From Rhabditophanes sp. KR3021 (lineage: Eukaryota; Nematoda; Chromadorea; Rhabditida; Alloionematidae), in the NCBI GenBank assembly GCA_963281155.1, contig CAUJLY010000001.1:9238001-9302000 (forward strand): a stretch of DNA of 64,000 nt, read 5' to 3'. Shown one piece after another: positions 6,759 through 61,469 of the stretch. The notes beneath the pieces were generated by a model. That model made no database searches. It was given only the letters and a program-made list of their open reading frames with translations, and was not told the origin of the DNA. Position 1 is the stretch's first letter, and every line of letters starts with the position of its first letter. The position numbers and the translations under genes are program-made.

Positions 6759-9713
6759 TTAATTTGTGTGCTGTTTTTCAGCCTCCTCAACGTTGATGTC
6801 TTCCTCTTTTTCTTCAACGTCATCTTGTTCGTCTTCGGACCATTTGGGTGAGTCAAGGTCAGCCTCCTAGAAAGTTAATTAAGAGATGGATTTAGATGAT
6901 ATTTGGCTTACCTCATTACTTTCTGATGCGCCTGACTCGCCTTGGCCAACACTGGTTGGGCATTTAACCTCGCTCAATGAATTCGGTTCGATTGCCTTGG
7001 CAGTAATGTGCGTAGTATTACTTTCGACTTTCCCTTCCTGGTCACTACCATCCTCGAAGCTATCATCATTTGGGTTTGAGTGGGCATCAATCAAATCTTG
7101 ATTATTGTATGCTGAATCCTTAGCATTAATGGCCTCCTCGAATTCTTGGACTAAATTTCTGTCGTTGTTACCAAGGTGACGATTCCCATCTTCGTTAGGA
7201 TTTTCAATCAAGAATTGGTTGAACTTTTCAAGCTCTTTTGACTCTTCGAACCCATCGAACAAGTTGCCATACATGCCAGGAGTAGCGATCTGGTCCGCTA
7301 ATGCCTTTTGTCTTGCATTTTGACCCATACTCTCAACTTTTCCTTTCCATAACTCGACAACTCTGTCTACTTGGCTTGGGAGGTATGTATGAGCAAACAT
7401 CGAGGCTTCGGGTAATCTGTCAAGGGCAATCAGCTTTTCCAAGCACTCTTCTAAGTTTCCTAAAGTCAAGTCGGCAAGGAAGGAAGTGTTGTGTCTTCCA
7501 CATTCATTTGAAGTTTTCGCCAAATGACTCATCAAAGAAGTAGATCCCACGCAAATAGCCAGCACGAACAACCCTCCAAAATCATTAGCCTTTGCCATAC
7601 ATTCTCCGGCAAGTAAAATTTCAGACTTTTCAGTAGCAGCCTGAGCCAACACCGACCATTTTTGGTGGGAGTTAATTTCAAGAGCAACTTCCTTTGCAGC
7701 CTTCAAATCACCAAGCTGAATCGCCAACTCAAACTTGTGGTCATCATCTTTTGAAACCTCCAAAGCTTGTTTCGTCAAACCTTGCTTTTGCAAAAACTGA
7801 GCCAACTTGGTATGCTGATCACCTGGGATGGTTTCCAACAAAGCTTGGGCTGCGATGGGATCTCCTCCAAGGACAGCACCTTGGTACTCAAGAACAGATA
7901 ACAATAGTTTGAAAGAGACTATGTTGAGATGTTTCCCGGCAGCGTAGATTCGATTGTCCTTAGGAATGTAGCCGAGCAAGTAGAAGGCATCGTCCATCAA
8001 AGTGATGGTTACTACCTCCTTGCCGATGATGTAGTTTAAGCGATTTGCTGGGGTAGTATAGATGAGGAAGTTACCGCACCAGAAGGCTGTCACAATTATT
8101 TCGTCGAATTGGTGGCAGACAGTGAAGGCCGATTCGATCCCATCATCGGTGATGTCTTCTTCTGTAGCTTTTTGAACAGCTTCGGCCTCGTATTTCAGAA
8201 TGTAGAAACTGTCTTCAGTCGCAATCGCCACACTCTCATCAGTATTGGACCAAAAGATCTTCTTAGCCTCAATTTCGATACGACGTACCAGTATTCCAGT
8301 CTCGAAGTCGTAGAAGCATAAGTCAGAAGTGCCTCTAACGGCTAAAAGTGGCCCAGAACTGAGTCCATCAATAGCTCCATCAGTCCTGATTGTCTTGTAT
8401 TCCTTGAACTTCTTGAATATTTTGATGCAGTTATTGGATTCCTTAACAGCATACGAGACAGAGTCAGTGCACCAAGCGAAGTCCAATCCACTTCCATAGG
8501 CCTGATTTCTTAAAGCAGTAGCCGTGTAGATGATGTATTCCCCATCCCCACACGCAACCACATACCGCCCATTCGAAGAGTATTCCAAGGTTTGGGGAAA
8601 AATGTCTGAAGTGCCCATGTCTTTCGCATTTCCAATGATGTTTTCCCCATCCGCAACCTTGTCCAAGAATGATTTTTCAATTGTCTTGAGGTTGAATTGC
8701 TGGACTTCGCATTGCTTGGCCCACAGAATCTTCCCGGACCCATCCATCGTTACGGCTGGTTCGTCTCTACCAATCTTGACGACGACTGTGCCTTCGTCGA
8801 AACCAATTGCAATGTCGTTCGTTCCTTTCAACGCGGCCATGCACCACAGACGTTCCAACCCATAGTTTAGTGTGGTTTCCACTCTGAAAGTCCCAGAATG
8901 CCACAACTTCACAGTCCCATCCTCAGACCCTGTGACGATGATTGGAATTTCTGGATGAAAAATACAGGCCGTAATCGAGTTGGCGTGGCCTTCCAACGTA
9001 GCAACGCAGCTTTTGTTTTGATAGTCCCATATCTTGATGAGCTTGTCGTCTGCCCCGGAGATGATGTAAGGTTTGTCGCCACCATGGTAATAGTCCACGC
9101 AATTAACCCCAGACAAATGGCCGTTAAGTGAGAAGTTGGGCGTTGAAGCCCCGAATTGCCAGACCTTGACCGTCTTGTCGAGAGAAGCAGAGGCAAAGGA
9201 GACGTTGTCTTTGGGGTTAATGACCATTTGCATGATGTAATAGGTATGCCCCTCAAAAGTTTGCTTCAACTGCCACTTGTTGTCCCAATCCCATACTTTG
9301 ATCAAGGAATCGTCTCCGGCCGAGATGAGGAATGGCTTGGTTGGGTGGATGATGATGGTGCGGATGTAGTCTGAATGTGCCTCGAAGTTGTGTACCTTCT
9401 CCATGGTGTTGTAGTTGAAAATTCGGATCCGGTTGTCGTCAGACCCAGTAATTATCCAGCTCTTCCTCGCAACAAACTTCCCACTCCGGACAGGAAACTC
9501 AGACACCTAAAACAAAAAGAGTTCAAGGATGGGCAGAAGTTAGGAACTCACATCAATAGACTTGACTAGTAATTGAGTATCATAATTCCATATATGAGCA
9601 TGACCATTGTAAAGGCAAACCAACGCCCACGGCTCACTCGGATGCAAGTCCACACACTTCACGCGATCGGACCTTGCTAGCAGCTTTCTTTTGACTTCTA
9701 ATTTGAGCGGCAT
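6759..9713 (-). CDS. copb2: Coatomer subunit beta' (COPB2)
   Basis: Scaffold subunit of the COPI coat, acting in Golgi-to-ER retrograde transport. Three exons on the minus strand: 9552-9713, 6912-9506 and 6759-6866, with introns of 45 nt (9507-9551) and 45 nt (6867-6911), both phase 0; 954 aa. Exon 1 starts [19 protein letters not shown], the family's usual N-terminus. The first 300 residues are WD repeats ([44 protein letters not shown]), followed by the second beta-propeller and an alpha-solenoid ([20 protein letters not shown]). An acidic C-terminal tail ends in EAEKQHTN. The small last exon was joined because the frame stays open across a clean GTAAGC/CTAG intron. An acceptor TTTTCAG lies 4 nt before the ATG, so the mRNA is probably trans-spliced. 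Confidence 0.97.
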
Positions 9714-9717
9714 TGGT

Positions 9718-9724
9718 CTGAAAA
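9718..9724 (-). promoter_or_regulatory. Putative SL trans-splice acceptor of COPB2
   Basis: On the minus strand a TTTATTTATTTTCAG tract ends at 9718, and the COPB2 ATG (9713) follows after only four bases. A 5' UTR this short is typical of SL-trans-spliced nematode mRNAs. An ordinary 5' UTR intron is the alternative. Confidence 0.55.
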
Positions 9725-16692: not shown

Positions 16693-18032
16693 ATGGTTTC
16701 TTGCAAATTGGTTTTAGCTATCCTTTTGGTTGCTGCTCCATCCTCAGTTATGAGTCAAGCAGTAGGTACTACATGTACCGCAGCAGCTTTTTGTAGCACT
16801 GGTTTAGGTAATAAGGACATTATTTTGTATTTTATAACAAAGCCATTTCAGCATGTAATGATAAACCTACAATCGATAAGACTGGAACCAAGGTATGTAC
16901 CAAACAATGCACCGTAGACACTGAATGTGGCGGAGGCACATGTGGCCCATCAACATTAGACACACCTCTTAAGACTTGTGATCTTTCTGGAGAAGCAGTA
17001 GATGGTTGTGCGGGCCCGTGTGGGGCTGGTACTGTCTGCAATGAATTTACATTACAGTGTGACGCCCCAACCACACTCGCCTCAACCGCTTCCGTAACTG
17101 AAGCCACAACAGTTGGAACTTGTTTAGATATTGCCCCCAATTGCGCAGCTTTATCCGCTCAAGGCTTGTGCACTGATGCCAAATATCAGGCACTTATGTC
17201 TTCAGATTGTGCAAACACGTAAGTAATATTCAATCCTTCACTTAAAGTTTCTTTAGTTGTTCAACATGTGCCAGTGCAGGAACTGCCACAACTGTTGCTT
17301 CAACCACTTGTGTAGATACATTATCTTCTACTACAACAACTTGTGCTAAGATGGCTACTTTATGTAGCTCGGGAGCTTACAAAGCTTTTATGATTGCCGT
17401 AAGTTTTGATTTAATAAACATATTTATACTTCTTTTCAGAACTGGTAGGTTATTAATTTATAGATATATTCTAATGATATTGAAGTGCTGCAACATGTTC
17501 ATTCTGCGGAGAACCAGGAGCTGGAAGTGGCGCTGCTGGAGGTGGAATTGGAACTCCTCAAGTTATTTACCCAGGAACATCAACAACCACATGTGTTGAT
17601 CTAATCACTAGTGGAGCCAACTCTTGCACTGCCTTAGCTAGTTATTGTAATGTTTCAGCTTGGTATGTTGGAGAAACATTTTGAAATGATATCTTATCAA
17701 AATGTGTGTCTTTTAAACTGGTTAATCATTTTATCTTTCCAGGATTAGCGTCATGACTACCAACTGCCCCGCCACTTGCAACAGATGCATCAACATTACA
17801 AATACTTCTGGAGTTTGTGCTGATACTTACAAGGTACATTTTACAGACCATTAAACTTATTTCTTTTATTTCTTAGGCTAATGGAACCACTGATTGTGTT
17901 GCGTCAAAGAAACATTTATGTACAAATGCAACGTATCAAACAATCTACAGGTATGCCAATCTTTATGCCAATGCTTATCTAATATCTTCTTTTAGACAAC
18001 AATGTCCAAAATTATGTGGCTTCTGTATTTAA
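16693..18032 (+). CDS. Secreted protein with four ShKT-like cysteine domains
   Basis: Eight exons: 16693-16807, 16852-17218, 17257-17398, 17440-17444, 17486-17662, 17743-17833, 17877-17950 and 17996-18032. They total 1008 nt, 335 aa. A signal peptide (MVSCKLVLAILLVAAPSSVM) is followed by a Cys-rich N-terminal part. Four ShKT-like six-cysteine modules then end in CANTCSTC, CAATCSFC, CPATCNRC and CPKLCGFC. Thr/Ser/Gly linkers separate them. ShKT domains are found in ion-channel-blocking peptides but are also common as disulfide modules in nematode secreted enzymes and surface proteins; no enzyme domain is present here, so a structural or interaction role is as likely as a toxin-like one. The 5-nt exon AACTG is required to keep frame and to supply a conserved Cys of the second module. 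Poly(A) signal AATAAA at 18070-18075. Confidence 0.85.
17440..17444 (+). other. 5-nt microexon of the ShKT gene
   Basis: AACTG is flanked by TCTTTTCAG on the left and GTAGGT on the right, between two 41-nt introns (17399-17439, 17445-17485). It completes Asn and most of a Cys codon (TG|T). With it the eight exons total a multiple of three; without it the downstream frame is lost and a module cysteine disappears. Inferred from sequence only. Confidence 0.7.
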
Positions 18033-20214: not shown

Positions 20215-20248
20215 CCTACTTCCGATTAACTCAACTGATCATATAAAA
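20215..20248 (+). promoter_or_regulatory. SL RNA gene 1 promoter: PSE-like element and TATA box
   Basis: CCTACTTCCGATT (20215-20227) starts 57 bases, and TATAAAA (20242-20248) 30 bases, before the predicted first base of the SL RNA (20272). The same two elements stand at exactly the same distances before copy 2, while the bases between them differ. That is the pattern of conserved snRNA-type promoter elements (PSE plus TATA). No T-run terminator follows the RNA, so Pol II is more likely than Pol III. Confidence 0.75.
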
Positions 20249-20271
20249 GACCAACTAAATCAAACTTAGAC

Positions 20272-20365
20272 GGTTTAAAAAACCCAGTTTGAGGTTAGTA
20301 TGCGTTCAGGATTCTACACGAATTCTGTTAGCAAATTTTGGAAGGAGACTTGAAAAGGTCTCTAA
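20272..20365 (+). ncRNA. Spliced-leader (SL) RNA, copy 1
   Basis: The leader occupies 20272-20293 (22 nt). It begins GGTTTAAAAAACC and ends AGTTTGAG, with a GTTAGT donor immediately after it at 20294. It matches nematode SL1 at 18 of 22 positions (differences at 8, 9, 11 and 14) and has the same length and the same TTTGAG|GT junction. The intron half carries an Sm site AATTTTGG (20334-20341) followed by a stem GAGAC...GTCTC (20345-20349 with 20358-20362). This is the order seen in C. elegans SL RNA. Length about 94 nt, 3' end approximate. The RNA would donate its leader to pre-mRNAs in trans. The alternative, a chance repeat, is unlikely given three ordered motifs and the promoter geometry. 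Confidence 0.9.
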
Positions 20366-20459
20366 TAAAAATATTGAAAATAAAAAATGACTGTTACATT
20401 AACAAAGGAATGACTTGTTTAAATGTGTGTATGCATTATTCAGCTACCCAGCGCAAAGG

Positions 20460-20493
20460 CCTACTTCCGATTGTCAGATATGTGTGTATAAAA
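20460..20493 (+). promoter_or_regulatory. SL RNA gene 2 promoter: PSE-like element and TATA box
   Basis: CCTACTTCCGATT at 20460-20472 and TATAAAA at 20487-20493 lie 57 and 30 bases before the predicted start at 20517, identical to copy 1. Confidence 0.75.
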
Positions 20494-20516
20494 GGCTGGT
20501 AAAAGGGGACTAAGAC

Positions 20517-20609
20517 GGTTTAAAAAACCCAGTTTGAGGTTAGTATGCGTTCAGGATTCTACATGAATTCTGTTAGCAAATTTTGGAATGAGACTTGAAA
20601 AGGCCTCTA
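20517..20609 (+). ncRNA. Spliced-leader (SL) RNA, copy 2
   Basis: The leader at 20517-20538 is identical to copy 1, with donor GTTAGT at 20539, Sm site AATTTTGG at 20579-20586 and a 3' hairpin around 20591-20607. It differs from copy 1 at only about three positions over the RNA (one in the middle, two around the hairpin, where one A-U pair becomes A-C). The repeat period is 245 bp. Sequence outside promoter elements and RNA is not conserved between copies, so selection or gene conversion acts on the gene itself. Confidence 0.88.
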
Positions 20610-20837
20610 AAAAACAACCAAACAATAACACATTTGTTGTACATCTTACAATAATTTACTATCAAATTAATCCTTTTCAAAAGTATCTGTGATATTATAT
20701 TACTGAATATGCATGCAGTCAACCATCTTGCTATATATTTTAGCGTCATATGCAAATGCAGATGAAGTTAGTGATAAAAGAAAATGTATGAGAGATCATT
20801 TATTTAACAATATTTATAACAAAAAAGAGTAATTAAT
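20610..20837. other. Spacer between SL RNA genes and histone H4
   Basis: Nothing recognised. A third SL copy is not present here. Confidence 0.5.
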
Positions 20838-20891: not shown

Positions 20892-21875
<984 letters not shown>

Positions 21876-21923
21876 TTCCTGTCATTCTTATGCTTGTACA
21901 ATAAACCACACTTTTATCCCATC

Positions 21924-21939
21924 AGCCCTCTTTAGGGCT
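21924..21939 (+). terminator. Histone mRNA 3' stem-loop (H3)
   Basis: AGCCCT-CTTT-AGGGCT, 48 bases after the H3 stop. The stem differs from the other three histone genes by a compensated base pair (T-A to C-G), which supports selection on pairing. Confidence 0.92.
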
Positions 21940-22264
21940 ATCAATGTTCTCACTTTAATTAAATTATTCTTTTGACGTATGCCTTCATAATAAATACATT
22001 CTCTTTATCAATTGTGCCTCTTTGATTCTAATCACATTTGGAATGCCTACACATTTAATGGTAAAATACTAAAAATGTTTGTGTGTTGCGGAAGTAGATG
22101 CTTTACGCGCCAAAGAATTTACTTTTACACAAAAGTACACACATAGCAGTACTTGCCTGGCAATATCTAGTTAAATATGTTTAAAAATATAAATGATGAT
22201 GTCAACAATTTATTACGTTCAAGCAAATGATAATTTAATACGAGATCAAAGAAAGTAAAATGAT

Positions 22265-22280
22265 AGTCCTAAAGAGGACT
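22265..22280 (-). terminator. Histone mRNA 3' stem-loop (H2A)
   Basis: Minus-strand AGTCCT-CTTT-AGGACT, 36 bases after the H2A stop. The spacer 21940-22264 between the convergent H3 and H2A ends holds no gene. Confidence 0.9.
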
Positions 22281-22316
22281 GTTGGGAATGTAGAATGTTT
22301 AAATTAGTCAAATAAT

Positions 22317-22712
22317 TTACTCGGCAGTTGAAGCGGCGATTTCGGCTCCTTTCTTTGGAACAAGTCCAGATTGGATGTTTGGAAGAACTCCACCTTGAGC
22401 AATGGTGACTCCGGATAAGAGTTTGTTCAACTCTTCGTCATTTCTGATGGCCAATTGAAGATGTCTGGGGTTGATTCTGGACTTCTTGTTATCACGGGCA
22501 GCGTTACCGGCCAATTCAAGGACTTCAGCAGCCAAGTACTCGAGAACGGCGGCGAGGTAAACTGGAGCTCCGGCACCAACTCTCTCGGCGTAGTTTCCTT
22601 TTCTGAGCATACGATGAAGACGACCAACTGGGAATTGAAGTCCAGCTCTGCTAGATCTTGACTTGGCTTTTCCTGTGGACTTAGCTTTTCCTCCCTTTCC
22701 GCGGCCAGACAT
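22317..22712 (-). CDS. his (H2A): Histone H2A
   Basis: 131 aa, single exon. The start was set at [20 protein letters not shown] because the TATA box (minus-strand TATAAAA at 22772-22778) leaves room only for this ATG, although the frame is open further upstream. It has the canonical [13 protein letters not shown], acidic-patch residues ([29 protein letters not shown]) and a short C-tail ending in [13 protein letters not shown]. No H2A.Z or H2A.X-type SQ tail. Confidence 0.98.
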
Positions 22713-23031
22713 GATTTGAATAAATGTAAAGTATGAGTTAAACTCGATACTGAATGCACGCAAACTATGTCTTTTATACTTTTTGTTTGCGGTGTGGGTG
22801 TGTCTACCTAATCATATCTATAGAAAGGTTAGTAAATGCGGGAAAGAAGTAGTGATCCCCCATCGCCACCATTTTTTCCTTCCGCTGTGGGTGTGTCTAT
22901 CTAATCAGATGTATTAGGTCAGTAAATGCGGGAAAGTTGCAGGGTCCACCCATCACCATCAACTTTTTATATAAAAGACAACACGTTTGCTAAACCATAT
23001 CACTTGTATTTATACATTTATCTATTCAATC
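22713..23031. promoter_or_regulatory. Divergent H2A/H2B promoter
   Basis: It contains the H2A TATA (minus, 22772-22778), the H2B TATA (TATAAAA, 22970-22976) and two copies of a roughly 80-90 bp block, each with GCGGGAAA (22838-22845 and 22928-22935), a match to the E2F core TTTCCCGC. Confidence 0.7.
22793..22962. repeat. Tandem duplicated promoter block between H2A and H2B
   Basis: Copy A (about 22793-22876) and copy B (about 22886-22962) share TGTGGGTGTGTCTA, CTAATCA, AGTAAATGCGGGAAAG and a CCCATC/CCACC end. They differ by substitutions and a few small gaps. Confidence 0.75.
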
Positions 23032-23403
23032 ATGCCACCAAAGCCCGCTGCTAAAGGAAAGAAAGCTGTCAAAGCTACCAAGACCGTCCGTGTTGGCGGA
23101 GAAAAGAAGAGAAGGAAGACCAGAAAGGAATCTTACTCCACTTACATCTACCGTGTATTGAAGCAAGTCCATCCAGACACTGGAGTCTCTTCAAAGGCCA
23201 TGTCAATCATGAACTCATTCGTGAATGATGTCTTCGAAAGAATCGCCGGAGAAGCTTCCAAACTCGCCCAATACAACAAGAAGTCCACCATCTCATCCAG
23301 AGAAATTCAAACTTCTGTTCGTCTTATTCTTCCAGGAGAGTTGGCCAAGCACGCTGTCTCCGAAGGAACAAAGGCTGTCACCAAATACACCAGCACCAAG
23401 TAA
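23032..23403 (+). CDS. his (H2B): Histone H2B
   Basis: 123 aa, single exon. Start set at [17 protein letters not shown], 56 bases after the TATA box. It has a Lys-rich N-tail, the HBR-like basic patch [11 protein letters not shown], the core [20 protein letters not shown] and the C-terminal helix [13 protein letters not shown] with the ubiquitinated Lys context. It completes the core histone quartet; no H1 gene is in the window. Confidence 0.98.
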
Positions 23404-43900: not shown

Positions 43901-46871
43901 AATGGCAGTGTTCCGACTATCTGTTCTGTTGAGGTAATATCTTCCAGCAATTGTTTTGCATTGTTGAGTAAACGACTCTTTTCGGCATGTCTAAGGGCAT
44001 ATCTGAAGTTTTGCATATTCCGTGGGAAGGAAATTTGGAGGAGAGGTTCATTAAAGGAGGTATTAATTTGGGTGAGTAATGGATAATTATCGAAGTATCT
44101 GTTATTAATCGCAAATCCAAATCTGCCAATTTTTTTGTTGTTTTCGAGGCGAAACTTGGCAGTTTCAGTAGGATAAGCAACTATTTGAATCAGCCATTCA
44201 TGCAAAGTTTCGCTAATGCTCCCCACGTCTTGACATCCCAAATCAAATAAACTAGAACAGTCAACATTTGTCGTCATTTCATGAATTGAAGTGTAGCACT
44301 GGTTCAAACACGAAATTGCATTAATGGGCTTCAAGCATAATTTGACTGCAATCATCCATAGAGGAATAAATCGGGCATCTCCGATGTAAGTTGTTGAAAA
44401 TGACATCGTCGTGTCACTAATCACATCTCTCTGTGATTTCCTTTCCCATGTCATCAACCTCGCCAAGCATAAGTAAATTGAGGTGAAAAGAGGCTTTAAC
44501 TCTTGGGCTAATACTTGCTGGACTAGTTGATTGGGTGATTTGTGCATATATTCTATCAAACACAGATAAAATGTGCAATCAGACGACTTGAAAATATTCT
44601 CCAAGATCTCTTTGACAATTGGAACAGCATGGGGTGTGTAAACCTTAGATAATACATCAAAGGTTGTGTCCGTATTCAAGGCTGGATGAGGTGAAAATAT
44701 CCTCTGAAAAATCTTGCGATCATAAATGCATTTGTCGTAGGTCGAGTCTCTCAATTTCTTGATGTTTTCACGGATGTAGATCAAAAACCAATTCGAGTAT
44801 TCTTCGAAAAAAAGAGGGTAATCGAGGAGTTTTAGGACGATACTGCATTGGTCATTGCAAATCATTGCATTTCCCGTCATCCTCGAGAAGTTTCGTTTTA
44901 ACAGGTAGATCCATGTCCTTGGATCCATGTTTAGACAAAAGGTTGTGCAATAAACATCTATCAATCTTTTATCTTCTGCAATCAGATTTAAGTTTTCCGG
45001 ATTTTTTCTGACTAATTGTTGATAAACTTTAGAGCATTTTAGAATCTCCACACATTTATATCCACGCATTAAAAGTTCTTCCAAAATTTCTAGCTCATTG
45101 CCAATCATATCTTCGCCATTAACTGGGTTGGCTTGTTTCATAGAGCAAAGCAGACTATTGACTACTTCATAGATCTTGACCCACAGCATTTTAACTTCCA
45201 TAGGATTCATTTGTGAATTCAGTTTTGAATGACGACAATCGCGGTACACTTTGTTTAAGGGAGCATGTTCTTGTTGCGGCCTAGTCGGAACCAAAGCATT
45301 CATATTAATTCTGAGGAAATGATTAGAAGGTGATTGGTGGGGCAATTTATTTCTCATATCCGCATGTTTCTTAGCCAAAGCCATATAATCATTAAACTTG
45401 AACAAGGGAATGTAATAATCAACCAACAATGCCAACTTATGGACAAGGCATTCCAAGACGTAGAAGATTAACCGTCTCAACGGCTTCTTCGGATCATTTT
45501 GAATAGTCATCGCATGCTGGATAAGTTCAATTGTCAAATCCAAATACTTTATATTAGTTGCAACTCCATTCTTCGTGTCAATTATCTCAATTTGACAATG
45601 GTGCAAAACCATGGAAAATAATTCATAATCCAGGTATCTGATAGTTTGGGAGAACATATCGCAAACAATTTCAGATCCATAAACTCTTAGGCCTTCTTCT
45701 TCACTAATCCTGATACCGAGAATATTAGGTTCAGAACATAATTCTGGAATTAGTTTGATCATGTGTACAGCAAATTCGGAGTCGAACATTTGTTTGAGTG
45801 AGTAAAGAAGTTCTTTTCTTTCAGGCAATAGGTCCAATTTAGTCCATGTCAAAATGTTCAAGTAAGAGTCAGCAAATTTCACCCCGATTTCTTGTTTATT
45901 CTGACTGGTACTAAAGACCTTGACAGCTTTAGCCAGAAACTCCAAAGTCTTGATCTGAGCAATATAAAGCAGACTCAGCGTATGCTTGTCACTAGCTTTT
46001 CTCTTGTCATCATCAATACTGCATCTTGTGAATTCGAGCAACGTAAGGCATAACTCCACAAAATTGAATCTTTCTCTATTCTTCTCAGTATAATTGAACA
46101 GATTTGTGTAAAGAGTAGGAAGAACAGCCAAAACTTTAAAACTCTGCTTGGCTTTTGGGTAAAACTTGACACGGTTGTCAGCTACACGTGATGTGGGATG
46201 GTTGAAGATGGATAATTCACTTTCCCGACTGTATTTGTCCATTAACCTTTTCAAGACATCTTTGTCGATTGCGGTCAACTTCATTTGGCGAATATCAAGT
46301 TCAAGTTGGGTGATTTCGATCAAAATACCCCCTTCGCGGACTTTTGCTGTGACTTTAGCGTACATTTTGATAGAATCGTCTATAAAAGTTGATAATTCAG
46401 AAGAAATACAGAAGTTCGGGAAATGGAAGAGAATCTGATAAGTTTGCAAAGCCTTAATAGCATTGAACTCGTTGTCATGATGAACTGCAAAGAGCAATAC
46501 TCCTTCCAAAAGTCTGTGGCTAACCATTTCTCTAGGAATGCCATGGAAAATCCCAAGAGTGCATAAGATTTTGGCTCTTAGCAAGTGCCTTTGATCTGTT
46601 TCCACAAAAGCCGGTTCAATGGATTCCAAATGTTTGGATAAAAAACCCAAGGCATCTTCGAGGGTTGGATGGTCACGATCATACATCTGCAGCTCATCAA
46701 TTGAGATCATAAGTGACTAAAGATTATCAATTAAATGATTACTATAGACAAACATACATCATAGAAAAGAAGCTGATCCGTAAATGACATTGCTTGAACA
46801 TTTGTCTGAATGAGGCCGCCAACTTCCGAGGCAGCAGAATACATTTCCGGAGGCATATTATAATGACGCAT
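34918..46871 (-). CDS. trr-1: TRRAP/Tra1 (PIKK-family scaffold of histone acetyltransferases)
   Basis: Exon 1 is 46758-46871 and exon 2 is 34918-46716, an uninterrupted 11.8-kb exon; the 41-nt intron is in phase, giving 3970 aa. TRRAP is the giant adaptor through which SAGA and NuA4/TIP60 acetyltransferases meet activators. Evidence: length; N-terminal HEAT region with family-like blocks (DHPTLEDALGFLSKHLE, IAQIKTLEFLAKAVKVF, ERKELLYSLKQMF); thousands of residues of helical repeats; a FAT region (VSDWSGKINANLLLLK); and a C-terminal PI3K-like domain. That domain (FKYIYRNGVIMKEIVVRGNN, LFDYSLLGEIGSELMAYRLF, RRRFSRKLAMVGMSGHIL) lacks the HRD and DFG catalytic motifs expected of an active kinase, as TRRAP does; it ends with FATC-like ITDFPWF. 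DNA-PKcs, ATM and TOR were considered and dropped because they keep those motifs. Five in-frame codons upstream of MPPEMYSAASE start at the ATG at 46871. An AG acceptor lies 8 nt before it. Confidence 0.93.
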
Positions 46872-46879
46872 AATTGCAC

Positions 46880-46886
46880 CTGCAAA
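46880..46886 (-). promoter_or_regulatory. Putative SL trans-splice acceptor of TRRAP
   Basis: Minus-strand TTATTTTGCAG ends at 46880 and the ATG at 46871 follows after eight bases. It sits about 355 bases after the stop of the upstream CUT gene on the same strand, and about 225 bases after that gene's AATAAA (47106-47111). Confidence 0.6.
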
Positions 46887-56599: not shown

Positions 56600-58270
56600 T
56601 TATAATTTATTGTTAGATGGTTGTTCACCACCTTCCCATTTATAAGTGCCTGTATAGACAAAGCCGTGAGTATTCATCAGAACATCAGCCGACTCCGGTC
56701 CTCTGCTCCCAAAGACATACTTTTCAGGTTTGATTGAATTGTTTTCAAGATATTGAAGGAATGGAGTAAAGATTTGCCAGGCCAATTCAAGTTCATCTGT
56801 GCGAACGAAGTTTAATTGCGACCCCAAAAATACTTCAAGGATTAGTCTTTCGTAAGCATCTGGTAATCGCACGCCCTAAAATTATGAAAGTTACTTATAG
56901 TTACACATTTATATTACCTTATATCTAGAACTGTAAGTCAAGTCCAATTCCGTTTCCTCAACCTCGAATTCTAGCTTTGGAGTCTTGGCGTTCAGTTTAA
57001 CGTAAACAGCCTCATTTGGTTGAACTCTCATCACAAGCTCGTTTCTCTTTAGATTACCAAAGTCAAAGATGTCTTTCTTGATGTCTGGAACATCCTTGTA
57101 TTGAACACGAACCTCGGCCTTTCTCTCATTTAAAGCTTTGCCGCAACGTAGGAAGAATGGAACTCCACGCCATCGTTCGTTGTCAATGTAGAAAACAATC
57201 ATAGCATATGTTGGAGTATTTGAGTCTTCTGGGACTCCTTGATCATCCAAGTATCCTAAACGATGTTCAGGATTTGACGATTCACTATTGCCAACATATT
57301 GTCCAAGGACAAAGTCTTGCTTGCTAATTGGCCTGACGGCTCTAAGAACTCTAACCTTTTCATCACGGATATCATCACCGCCCAAGCTCTTTGGTTTTTC
57401 CATAGCAAATAAAGTTAAAATTTGGAATAAATGGTTCTGCATGATATCACGAATGATACCACTCTTGTCAAAGTACCCTCCCCGACCTGCAGTTCCAAAA
57501 TCTTCCTTGAATGTAATGGTCACAGAAGATATGTGTTCCTTGTTCCAGGTTGGATTGAAAATGATGTTTCCGAAACGTAGAACCATCAAGTTTTGAACCA
57601 TTTCTTTGCCAAGATAGTGGTCAATTCTGTAAAGTTCATCTTCATTGAACAGTCTGGCTAAATGGTCAGACAAAGCAGTTGATGAAGCAGTATCATGACC
57701 AAATGGTTTTTCGATGATAATTCTAGTCCAGCATTTTTGTTTGGGGCCCATGCAGTTTGTGTAAATTTTGGCGGTAACATCTGTGTATGTGGTTGGTGGA
57801 AGAGCCAGATAGTAAACCCTGTTGACGGCTTGCCCAACTTTCGTAGCCAAATGTTCGATTTCAGTTTGAAGTCTAGAATACCCTTCATCGGTATCATAAG
57901 CGCCAGAGATGTATTTTAATCCGCAACAGAAAGTATTGAATTGTTCTTTGTCTTCCTCGTTGACTTTGCAATATTTTTGAAACCCTTTCCTCCAGGTTGG
58001 CTTGTCAAGGTTGGTTCTAGCGTAACCAAAGATTGCGGTCTTGTATGGGAGTAGTTGTTGATTGTACAAATGCCAAAGAGTTGGTATGATCTTCTTTTTA
58101 GCCAAATCCCCTGATGCTCCAAAAATGACAAAAACATGCGGAGAAGAGGAGTCAATAGACTTGCGGCGTAATTGCTTCCGATAATCTTCAGCTAATCCAT
58201 TCTCCCAATGATAAGGACAAGTGTCATCAGAAACACAAAGGCTTACTTCTTCTTCAGCTTGTCTAGACAT
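56600..58270 (-). CDS. gspd-1: Glucose-6-phosphate 1-dehydrogenase
   Basis: First enzyme of the oxidative pentose phosphate pathway; oxidises glucose-6-phosphate with NADP+ to 6-phosphogluconolactone in the cytosol, providing NADPH. Exon 1 is 56918-58270 and exon 2 is 56600-56875, with a 42-nt intron in phase 0; 542 aa, close to the animal enzyme. Motifs: NADP-binding [15 protein letters not shown], substrate and catalytic signature [16 protein letters not shown], and structural-NADP region residues in [19 protein letters not shown]. The C-terminal exon starts [12 protein letters not shown], the usual [10 protein letters not shown] motif. The ATG at 58270 was chosen because an AG acceptor lies just three bases upstream, which suggests trans-splicing; the frame open beyond it is intron or outron. 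Confidence 0.97.
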
Positions 58271-58273
58271 GCT

Positions 58274-58280
58274 CTGAAAT
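58274..58280 (-). promoter_or_regulatory. Putative SL trans-splice acceptor of G6PD
   Basis: Minus-strand TTATATTTCAG ends at 58274. The ATG at 58270 follows after only three bases. Confidence 0.6.
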
Positions 58281-60106: not shown

Positions 60107-60113
60107 AATTCAG
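60107..60113 (+). promoter_or_regulatory. Putative SL trans-splice acceptor of RAD23
   Basis: TACTTTAAAATTCAG ends at 60113 and the ATG at 60119 follows after five bases. Confidence 0.55.
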
Positions 60114-60118
60114 GTCAA

Positions 60119-61469
60119 ATGGACATTCTATTTAGAACATTGACTCACAAAAGTCGGACTGTTTCCATCGATGGACCCACACCGGTAGACACAATTTTGC
60201 AGAAATTGGAAGGTATGTTCCCACCAATAGAAGATACTTTTGATGGAGTTGAACAGTCGTTGGTATATGCTGGAAAAGTTTATCACAGTATGGATATCTT
60301 CGATCCTTCTAAAGTAAACAGCCACAAATTTGTCCTCTACTTTCAAATGGGAGCAGACAACGATTATGATGACTCGGAGGATTCCGTCCAGTCAGTGGAA
60401 AGGGATGTCATAGATGCTAATGAGATGGAAATTATAGATCTGGAAAATAATAGTAACATCTATGGTATGATTTACAATGAAAGTCACTCGAATGGTCATC
60501 AAACTTCTGGATTGACTGATGAGTCTTTGGATGAATCAGAACAAGATAACGATGAGGAGGATGAGGGAGGTAAAATAGGACGTACTGATACTTTTGATTC
60601 GTCTACTTTTTTTTTTGGCCTTTTAGATGCTTTTGAAGATACAGAAGATTCGGATGATCCTCACGATTATTTGGAAAGTGATACGCTTCGTATTTCGGAA
60701 CTAGAGCCAGCTTCAACTGAAGGAACTGAAACAACTGATGAACTTTACGAGACTGAGGAGGAAAACAACAATTAGGTATCTTACTAGAGCAACTATTGGC
60801 CTTGGATTTACTAAGGAGGAGGTTGAAAAAGCTTTAAAGTCATCAAACAATGACTCTGAATATGCCATTTCTCTTCTGATTGCTAATTGTCAAGACGACT
60901 CACAAGAAGATATTGCTGCAATCATTCCGAATCTCCCAATTCACGAAAACAAAACTGATTGTCTCGTGACTTCTCCTTACTTTCAAGACTTGGCTGATAT
61001 TATGCAAAGGAATCCCCGTAGATTAAGAAGTTACATCAAGTCTGTTTCAAAAGAATCTCCTGAAATGATAATTTTTTTCAAACAATACGAAGATATTTTT
61101 TTGAATTTGCTAAATAAGCCTACAAGAATTAGGGATTGCTGCGATTTCTTCAGCACAGGAGAATCAGAAGATACGGGACACAGAGTCATGGGAACAGACG
61201 CCAATTCTGTTAGATTACGTCAGGAAGCTCTGAGAGCATTTGCAATAAACAATGGCTTGTTGATGGGACCTCCCGACAACGCAACATTGAATGTACATGC
61301 CATGGATCAACTCATACGTCTTTCACTGAGTTCACGAGATTTGGCTTCGATTAAACTTATCCAAGACATGGGCTTTGATCGGGAAAGAGTTATTGGAAGC
61401 TACATTGCACACGACCGGTCTGAGAATGACACTATTGACGCCTTGTTAAAGAATGACGAAGATGTCTAG
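60119..61469 (+). CDS. rad-23: RAD23 ubiquitin-receptor/nucleotide-excision repair protein, apparently frameshifted
   Basis: RAD23 shuttles ubiquitinated proteins to the proteasome and stabilises XPC in DNA repair. Domain order fits: UBL at residues 1-77 (RTLTHKSRTVSIDGPTPVDT, LVYAGKVYHSMDIFD); a long acidic linker; UBA1 (IGLGFTKEEVEKALKSS); XPC-binding STI1-like domain (FQDLADIMQRNPRRLRSYIK, NLLNK); C-terminal UBA2 (IKLIQDMGFDRERVIGSYIA, NDTIDALLKND). A 57-nt in-frame intron (60570-60626, GTAAAA to TTTTTTTGGCCTTTTAG) is inferred. The N-terminal frame ends at TAG 60773-60775; the UBA1 frame is +1 and open from about 60700. No intron explains the switch, so this is a single-base assembly indel, a young lesion or a +1 recoding site. 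Both halves are otherwise intact. AATAAA at 61540-61545. Confidence 0.82.

Follow-up and report, generated by a model that had tools for sequence, protein, structure and literature searches.

Two spliced-leader RNA genes in tandem

In a 64,000-nucleotide stretch of contig CAUJLY010000001.1 from the free-living nematode Rhabditophanes diutinus (hereafter the window), two spliced-leader (SL) RNA units lie head to tail at positions 20215–20615 (+), with their leaders 245 bp apart. An earlier reading of the letters alone (the original prediction) had called two identical 22-nt leaders at this spacing; they are found at 20272–20293 and 20517–20538, on the + strand like every other feature of the two units, and each reads GGTTTAAAAAACCCAGTTTGAG. 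On recomputation the leader agrees with SL1 at 18 of 22 positions, the figure on which it had been called a non-SL1 leader. Allowing up to three mismatches, the window contains two matches to it, compared with a shuffle mean of 0.01.

The predicted donor, Sm site and 3′ hairpin were located in both units. In unit 1 the leader exon is followed by the splice donor GTTAGT (20294–20299), stem-loop II (20301–20333), the Sm site AAATTTTGGAA (20333–20343) and stem-loop III (20345–20362). The same parts of unit 2 occupy 20539–20544, 20546–20578, 20578–20588 and 20590–20607. The hairpins were placed by folding and covariation, and the Sm site by the Rfam SL1 consensus and the ATTTTGG of loci selected on their leader. 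Directly 3′ of stem III in unit 1 stands TAATAAAA (20363–20370), which is like the CTAAAATAA or CTAATAAA that follows many U1, U2 and U4 genes on their 3′ side and is possibly a 3′-end signal; unit 2 has TAAAAAAC. Neither unit ends in a T-run terminator, as had been predicted.

Upstream, a proximal sequence element (PSE) starts at −57 in both units (CCTACTTCCGATTAACT, 20215–20231; CCTACTTCCGATTGTCA, 20460–20476) and a TATAAAA at −30 (20242–20248; 20487–20493), followed by a start-site element at −8 to −1: ACTTAGAC in unit 1 (20264–20271) and the family consensus ACTAAGAC in unit 2 (20509–20516). The intervening bases differ, as the original prediction stated. The RNA parts of the two units agree at 94 of 99 positions, the stretch from −57 to −1 at 36 of 57, and that from −130 to −58 at just 20 of 73.

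An Rfam scan of the window gave no match at the gathering score; at a relaxed threshold, both units matched RF00198 (SL1) across the full model, with 20.9 and 18.7 bits.

A dispersed family with several leader classes

We searched the whole genome of 44,845,725 bases in six contigs (11.2, 9.3, 7.9, 7.5, 6.6 and 2.4 Mb). Leader plus GT, with at most three mismatches, occurs at 133 places compared with one for the control, and the leader frame combined with the Sm pattern at 134 compared with three, six of the rows listed having no leader-like exon. The tandem pair is one small cluster of a dispersed family. To avoid selecting on the Sm site, 30 of the 133 places were fetched on exact leader plus GT alone: ATTTTGG is present in 28, GTTAGT in 29, TATAAAA (at least 6/7) in 28 and the PSE (at least 10/13) in 29. 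More copies that conserve the Sm site and the promoter spacing, the test set by the original prediction itself, thus exist in number. The SL family is the most abundant small-RNA gene family seen in the R. diutinus genome.

Canonical SL1 (GGTTTAATTACCCAAGTTTGAG) has no genome copy; the pattern used in the search was one base off SL1, and an exact SL1 would have matched it at one mismatch. The units also fall outside canonical SL1 as defined by RF00198, both by leader sequence and by gathering threshold. They do have the marks of nematode SL RNAs, namely a leader that starts with GGTT and runs into a GT donor, an Sm site between stem-loops II and III, and three stem-loops, of which II (weakly) and III are backed by covariation and stem I is conserved with no double changes. 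The leader follows the pattern described for Strongyloides ratti, GGTTT-N5–8-CCCA-N5–6-AG, with spacers of 6 and 5 and a GAG end. By anatomy, the window units read as SL RNA genes, and leaders of this kind are already on record in the clade. The suggestion that SL1 is nearly invariant, and the leader thus a candidate for a new SL type, is outdated, as SL1-like variants of tylenchine nematodes have been in print since 2006 (PMC1657053); a non-SL1 leader is unsurprising here because the S. ratti clones described there carried only SL1-like variants. For the exact leader string and pieces of the leader, we found no nematode paper in the open-licence literature (pieces judged by title), nor did a title-based search of that literature on the spliced leaders of Rhabditophanes, or on those of Strongyloides since 2007, return an SL study of R. 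diutinus.

Near variants of the major leader are also present, together with other classes: B (GGTTAAAAAACCTCAATTAAG, six places), C (GGTTTAAAACAAACCCATTTAAG, two), D (GGTTTAAAACCCAATTTGAG, two), E (GGTTATAAAAAAACCCAGTTTAAG, two), F (GGTTTAAAACACCTCAATTAAG and two relatives, four) and H (two SL1-like leaders, two places). The leaders of classes B, C, E, F and H have AAG as their last three bases, and in B and F CCTCA replaces CCCA, which places them outside the S. ratti pattern. With this list of likely leaders, RNA-seq searches in the group can use a fitting 5′ tag in place of C. elegans SL1.

Two observations concern the minor classes. Classes B (for example G000:C1:1011232) and F (L047, L048, L049 and L051) have a common leader end, CCTCAATTAAG, on very different RNA bodies, which looks like exchange of leader exons between SL genes. 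Class G is a lone Sm-bearing unit (L050, G000:C5:804014) whose leader-like start spans 27 nt (GGTTTGTCTAAAAGACTTTACATAAAG|GTTAGT) and in which no PSE of the SL type could be recognised; it is likely a pseudogene or a chance match, another kind of SL being the other option.

RNA structure and covariation

Of 65 parsed SL matches, three were misparsed and dropped, leaving 62 (57 main, 4 class F, 1 class G). From the 54 distinct RNAs among them we aligned 49, leaving out four near duplicates and L050. The Sm core is invariant in this alignment, whose members were chosen by a pattern requiring that core. Over the alignment, 91.4% of cells in the proposed structure hold standard pairs. Double-change cells number 29, compared with a shuffle mean of 7.7 (reached in none of 500 shuffles), and pairs with double-sided changes number 10, compared with 5.2 (reached in 2 of 500). 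When partners were slid along the alignment, 26–49% of cells paired, with 6–10 double-change pairs and just 10–14 double-change cells.

The covariation lies mostly in stem III (6 of 7 pairs); stem II shows it in a few cells of 4 of its 11 pairs (3 of 8 inner, 1 of 3 outer) and stem I not at all. Folding of single copies is modest, with z −2.74 for unit 1 (2 of 200 shuffles fold as well) and z −1.35 for unit 2 (18 of 200).

In 46 of the 49 aligned RNAs, the 5′ GGTT is able to pair with the inner AACC, so that AACC could take either of two partners. We infer a possible partner switch, in which AACC would pair with the GGUU of the donor as long as it is in the SL RNA, and with the 5′ end once the leader is part of an mRNA. 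Hairpins near the cap are reported to be widespread among spliced leaders (PMC9984361).

A promoter particular to SL genes

We compared the SL promoters with upstream regions of U small nuclear RNA (snRNA) genes from the same genome, keeping 15 of 16 U1, 12 of 13 U2 and 5 of 6 U6 rows (poor or truncated ends dropped), all 4 U4 (start set by hand) and all 7 U5. Merging near-identical regions at 85% reduced 57 SL regions to 41 (130 bases) or 37 (100 bases), and 38 U1, U2, U4 and U5 regions to 26. For the scoring matrix, U PSE windows were taken by best match to the U consensus and SL windows by fixed position.

The main-class SL PSE reads CCYACTTCCGATTNTCA. The PSE common to U1, U2, U4 and U5, found also in one U3 gene (L022), reads CTAACCCAGTCGNTCTG. 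Leave-one-out scoring classed all 37 SL and all 26 U1/U2/U4/U5 promoters correctly, and the U3 gene scored as U-type (24.0 versus −5.7). Exact TATAAAA is present in 22 of 37 main SL promoters and none of the 26 U promoters (Fisher 2.8e-7). At 6/7 or better it is found in 34 of 37 (31 at −30, 3 at −31) compared with 4 of 26, and in 6% of mononucleotide shuffles. SL genes thus depart from the metazoan RNA polymerase II (pol II) snRNA promoter, here taken as the U1/U2/U4/U5 PSE with no TATA. Both types keep a related core: ACCCA lies at −55 to −59 in 25 of the 26 U promoters (for the remaining one, a second ACCCA at −51 is counted), and CCYAC at −56 in 31 of the 37 main SL promoters.

Across the 41 non-redundant SL upstream regions, conservation is highest at the PSE (−56 to −39), the TATA box and ACTAAGAC, and the spacers between them have diverged. 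The SL PSE and TATA box occur as a pair 48 times before a leader and nowhere else in 355,540 bases of fetched loci (overlaps counted); the reversed control gave three. Classes B, C and E retain PSE and TATA despite their other leaders, in class D the PSE is kept but the TATA is poor (5/7), class H has a poorer PSE (11/16), and no clear PSE was found in class G. A PSE and TATA of its own is a trait of the main SL family and not just of two genes. The original prediction remarked on the combination and under-called it: it runs through the main family, whose PSE is moreover unlike the one at U snRNA genes.

U6, 5S and class F promoters

A third element, AACCCAYNNNAGYTGGNGT, is common to the upstream regions of U6 and 5S genes, about 10 bp further upstream than the SL PSE. 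It starts at −67 in two of three non-redundant U6 regions, the third being a low-scoring copy, and at −67 in 7 of 8 distinct 5S regions, with −66 in the other. No main SL promoter scores above 9/15 for it. From PSE to the −30 region, the distance is 27 bp in SL genes and about 37 bp in U6 and 5S. U6 genes carry TATATAAAA at −28, with TATAAAA in two of the three; 5S genes, of which we found 47 across the genome, have a weak TTTTAAAT-like stretch near −30. The 5S regions at L020, L028, L030, L031, L047, L048, L049 and L051 show a AACCCAYNNRAGYTGGTGT-like element at −67 (in L028 at −66, and weaker), as in U6. Such an external element is unusual for 5S, the textbook case of an internal promoter.

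The PSEs of class F SL genes resemble AACCCAATTT, with the ACCCA core at −58 in 3 of 3 promoters, and GCTTTAAATAA stands near −30.

Genome arrangement and neighbouring genes

Our list of 133 SL places is incomplete (the second SL genes in L052 and L067, for example, are missing), and its equality with the genome match count is coincidental. Among the places listed, 39 of 133 are no more than 150 kb from a scaffold end, compared with 5.3 expected, and 29 neighbouring pairs are 231–250 bp apart, all 29 on the same strand. Linkage to 5S genes of the C. elegans kind was rejected for class A (2 of 115 places listed lie within 500 bp of a 5S gene, measured to its lower coordinate) and is present for class F (4 of 4; random expectation 0.14% per place). 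In class F the 5S gene starts 222–246 nt downstream on the same strand. This class may be what remains of an old locus linked to 5S, its leader altered. Linkage to 5S genes, the usual state of C. elegans SL1, is seen here mainly in a small, diverged SL class.

Similar groups of SL, U1 and 5S genes recur on G000:C1 (about 1.01/1.64, 1.40/2.83 and 7.85/8.10 Mb), C5 (0.30/0.70 Mb) and C3 (1.14/1.24 Mb). Their likeness, some being mirrored, suggests segmental, partly inverted duplications. At least 9 of 16 U1 loci have an SL gene within about 1.1 kb (L053–L058, L060, L065 and L067).

Adjoining the SL pair in the window is a core histone quartet, H4(−), H3(+), H2A(−) and H2B(+), at 20892–23403, with 3′ hairpins of the CCTCTTTAGG type. 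Histone genes also lie near an SL gene in L033 and, at lower identity, in L010 and L011. A histone neighbourhood as a rule was rejected, as histone matches occur in 5 of 98 loci, two of which (L023 and L024) are the window’s own site. Upstream of the pair, 16693–18032 (+) holds a multi-exon gene for a cysteine-rich protein with a hydrophobic start (read by eye).

Candidate trans-splice acceptors

The original prediction had named four genes of the window as likely acceptors, and at the DNA level all four carry [AT]TNCAG ending 3–8 nt before the start ATG. In the COPB2-like gene (Pfam COPA/B domains), TTTTCAG stops 4 nt short of the ATG (A at 9713; 9713–9724, −). TRRAP, a name we keep from the prediction, has TTTGCAG 8 nt before its ATG (A at 46871; 46871–46886, −), and G6PD (Pfam G6PD_N and G6PD_C) has ATTTCAG 3 nt before (A at 58270; 58270–58280, −). 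The RAD23-like gene has ATTCAG 5 nt before (A at 60119; 60108–60119, +); an open reading frame at 60705–61466 with UBA and XPC-binding domains putatively belongs to the same gene. The same motif within 12 nt precedes 74 of the window’s 2512 ATGs and none of the four core histone genes next to the SL pair.

Discussion

The sequence of these genes, their copy number, promoter classes, stem II and III covariation and acceptors were observed directly. We consider it very probable that both units belong, as functional genes, to the major SL RNA family of R. diutinus, with a dedicated SL promoter. What we infer from the DNA concerns the transcription of these RNAs, the polymerase, the cap, trans-splicing and factor binding. 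Pol II would start at the GG, and the SL RNA would extend 91 nt to the end of stem III. The leader AACC would pair with GGUU across the exon–intron junction, two further hairpins would flank a single-stranded Sm site on which an Sm small nuclear ribonucleoprotein would form, and the 22-nt leader would be trans-spliced to pre-mRNAs at acceptors a few nucleotides before the ATG. The promoter would have three parts: CCYACTTCCGATTNTCA, a diverged PSE whose core lies at −56; a TATA box, at −30; and the ACTAAGAC start element. It would differ from the promoters of U1, U2, U4, U5 and one U3 in PSE sequence and TATA, and from those of U6 and 5S in PSE sequence and position.

Several observations weigh against parts of this interpretation. 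In a 551-base search, the RF00198 matches have E values of 0.26 (20.9 bits) and 0.8 (18.7 bits), with a gathering score of 75. Degenerate members exist, the Sm site being changed in L012 and L013. The acceptors fit 5′ untranslated region introns equally well, and a genome search for SmY gave no match, uninformative because its control likewise gave none. The four pairs of stem I show zero double-sided changes, so covariation does not test this stem, and sliding partners by +2 also gives 10 pairs with double changes, but in 14 cells. RNAalifold alone favours pairing of the Sm region, with 96.4% of cells paired and no double changes. We rejected that consensus fold since its Sm-pairing helix contains no double-sided change, whereas stem II has some; it may genuinely compete with the proposed fold in the naked RNA. 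For the promoter elements, the count of seven in eight 5S regions uses a consensus drawn from U6 and class F 5S units, the latter being four of the eight regions scored, and exact TATAAAA is absent from class F (0 of 3).

Further points of this kind concern the polymerase. In humans, a PSE followed by a TATA box calls for RNA polymerase III (pol III) (PMC6004067). In C. elegans, as described for its upstream motifs, most PSE/UM1 genes (snRNA and SL2) are TATA-less and pol II transcribed, and the UM3 promoter, PSEB with GTATA, mostly drives uncapped pol III stem-bulge RNAs (sbRNAs) that end at T-runs (PMC2527325). By this rule the SL genes would be pol III genes, with PSE and TATA recruiting BRF2-TFIIIB as at U6: 34 of 37 SL promoters have the PSE-then-TATA order of pol III type 3 at 6/7 or better, and TATAAAA is found in R. 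diutinus U6 too. We regard this as improbable. The type 3 terminator is missing, as TTTT stands inside the Sm site, where it would be expected to end a pol III transcript before stem III, and T-runs are few at the RNA 3′ end. TTTT occurs within 28 nt past stem III in just 7 of 62 SL genes, whereas in the four good U6 genes it stands at the 3′ end of the RNA. A wider stretch of 36 nt does contain TTTT in 20 of 54 SL RNAs, and the U1 and U2 genes checked (2 of 8 and 1 of 7) are no different from SL genes in this respect. The PSE is unlike that of U6 and 5S in sequence and position, and its position matches that of pol II genes; the 3′ context is TAATAAA-like, resembling many U1, U2 and U4 genes. 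Together, the TTTT of the Sm site, the scarcity of T-runs directly behind the RNA, the different PSE at a pol II position and the 3′ context make pol II the most likely polymerase for SL genes.

It is also conceivable that these genes are mostly non-functional copies of an SL-derived dispersed repeat, whether pseudogenes or mobile elements. There are roughly 130 dispersed copies enriched near scaffold ends, some in groups that resemble recent segmental copies, and 2 of the 30 leader-selected loci have a changed Sm core. Such a repeat would hardly be expected to show double-sided changes in its stems or to keep Sm site, donor, PSE and TATA in 28–29 of 30 loci. Moreover, the promoter travels along and is conserved while the spacers diverge, and its presence argues against RNA-made copies, which would be promoterless. 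We give this account very little credence. A stronger contender is that the SL-type PSE is simply a U-type PSE that drifted, is still bound by the same SNAPc and spread from one founder without any functional difference. SL and U promoters have a CCCA or CCYA core near −56 in common, the class F element is intermediate, a founder effect can fix a motif, and separation into two classes alone is no proof of two functions. We nonetheless lean against drift, as PSE, TATA and start element have not diverged with the spacers, and classes B, C and E retain PSE and TATA behind other leaders (class D, at TATA 5/7, and class H, at PSE 11/16, are less clear).

If SL genes are indeed read by pol II, the TATA box is not decisive, and the sequence or position of the PSE must decide. 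We therefore tentatively propose, at somewhat less than even confidence, that the rule equating PSE plus TATA with pol III is broken here: SL genes would have their own PSE and TATA and yet be pol II genes, with PSE position setting the polymerase by a plant-like logic of separate origin. As a spacing code, we hypothesize that a PSE core near −56 specifies pol II and one near −66 specifies pol III (U6 and 5S), one helical turn apart. If true, SL genes would be under a control separate from that of U snRNA genes, and 5S genes would have acquired an external promoter of the U6 type. Three features look new: the dedicated SL PSE and TATA, the 10-bp shift relative to pol III genes, and the presence of a U6-like element at 5S genes. 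The mRNAs of many nematodes depend on the supply of SL RNA, and a separate SL promoter with a TATA box in a culturable worm offers a direct test of the choice between pol II and pol III at snRNA-type promoters.

Comparison with known systems

R. diutinus, named as parthenogenetic in the title of a paper on it, is a relative of the parasite S. ratti in the Strongyloides clade. In S. ratti, all surveyed 5′ ends are reported to carry SL1-like leaders, 19 kinds in all and none canonical, and the leaders follow the pattern of the window leader (GGTTT, 5–8 nt, CCCA, 5–6 nt, AG, mostly with a GAG end; Guiliano and Blaxter 2006, PMC1657053). Both species thus have several variants and lack canonical SL1, in the clones of S. 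ratti and in the genome of R. diutinus. The S. ratti study rests on cDNA 5′ ends, whereas the SLs of R. diutinus are known from DNA and likened to them by the leader rule. Many leader variants are also described for the tylenchine nematodes Aphelenchus avenae (PMC2825203) and Heterodera glycines (PMC6362198); by eye, none of the 12 A. avenae leaders in Table 3 of PMC2825203 equals an R. diutinus leader.

C. elegans SL1 RNA has the same Sm site, AAATTTTGGAA, by the Rfam SL1 consensus, and its gene number of about 110 is similar (PMC1657053). Its genes form one monomorphic array with 5S rRNA (PMC1657053), whereas the major R. diutinus family is dispersed, with variable RNA bodies, and mostly not 5S-linked. 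In the Rfam SL1 model, ten leader bases pair across the donor; stem I of R. diutinus has four pairs. As in C. elegans, the PSE lies within 100 bp upstream, but UM1 is described there as shared by snRNA and SL2 genes, mostly without TATA (PMC2527325), whereas in R. diutinus a PSE of a separate type and a TATA box stand before the SL genes.

The proposed promoter logic resembles that of plants, where genes with an upstream sequence element and a TATA box are read by pol II or pol III according to a distance that differs by one helical turn (PMC9845283). The U1, U2, U4 and U5 genes of R. diutinus have no clear TATA, unlike plant snRNA genes, and the direction is opposite: the shorter distance belongs to pol III genes in plants (PMC9845283), and in R. 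diutinus to SL genes, with U6 and 5S having the longer one.
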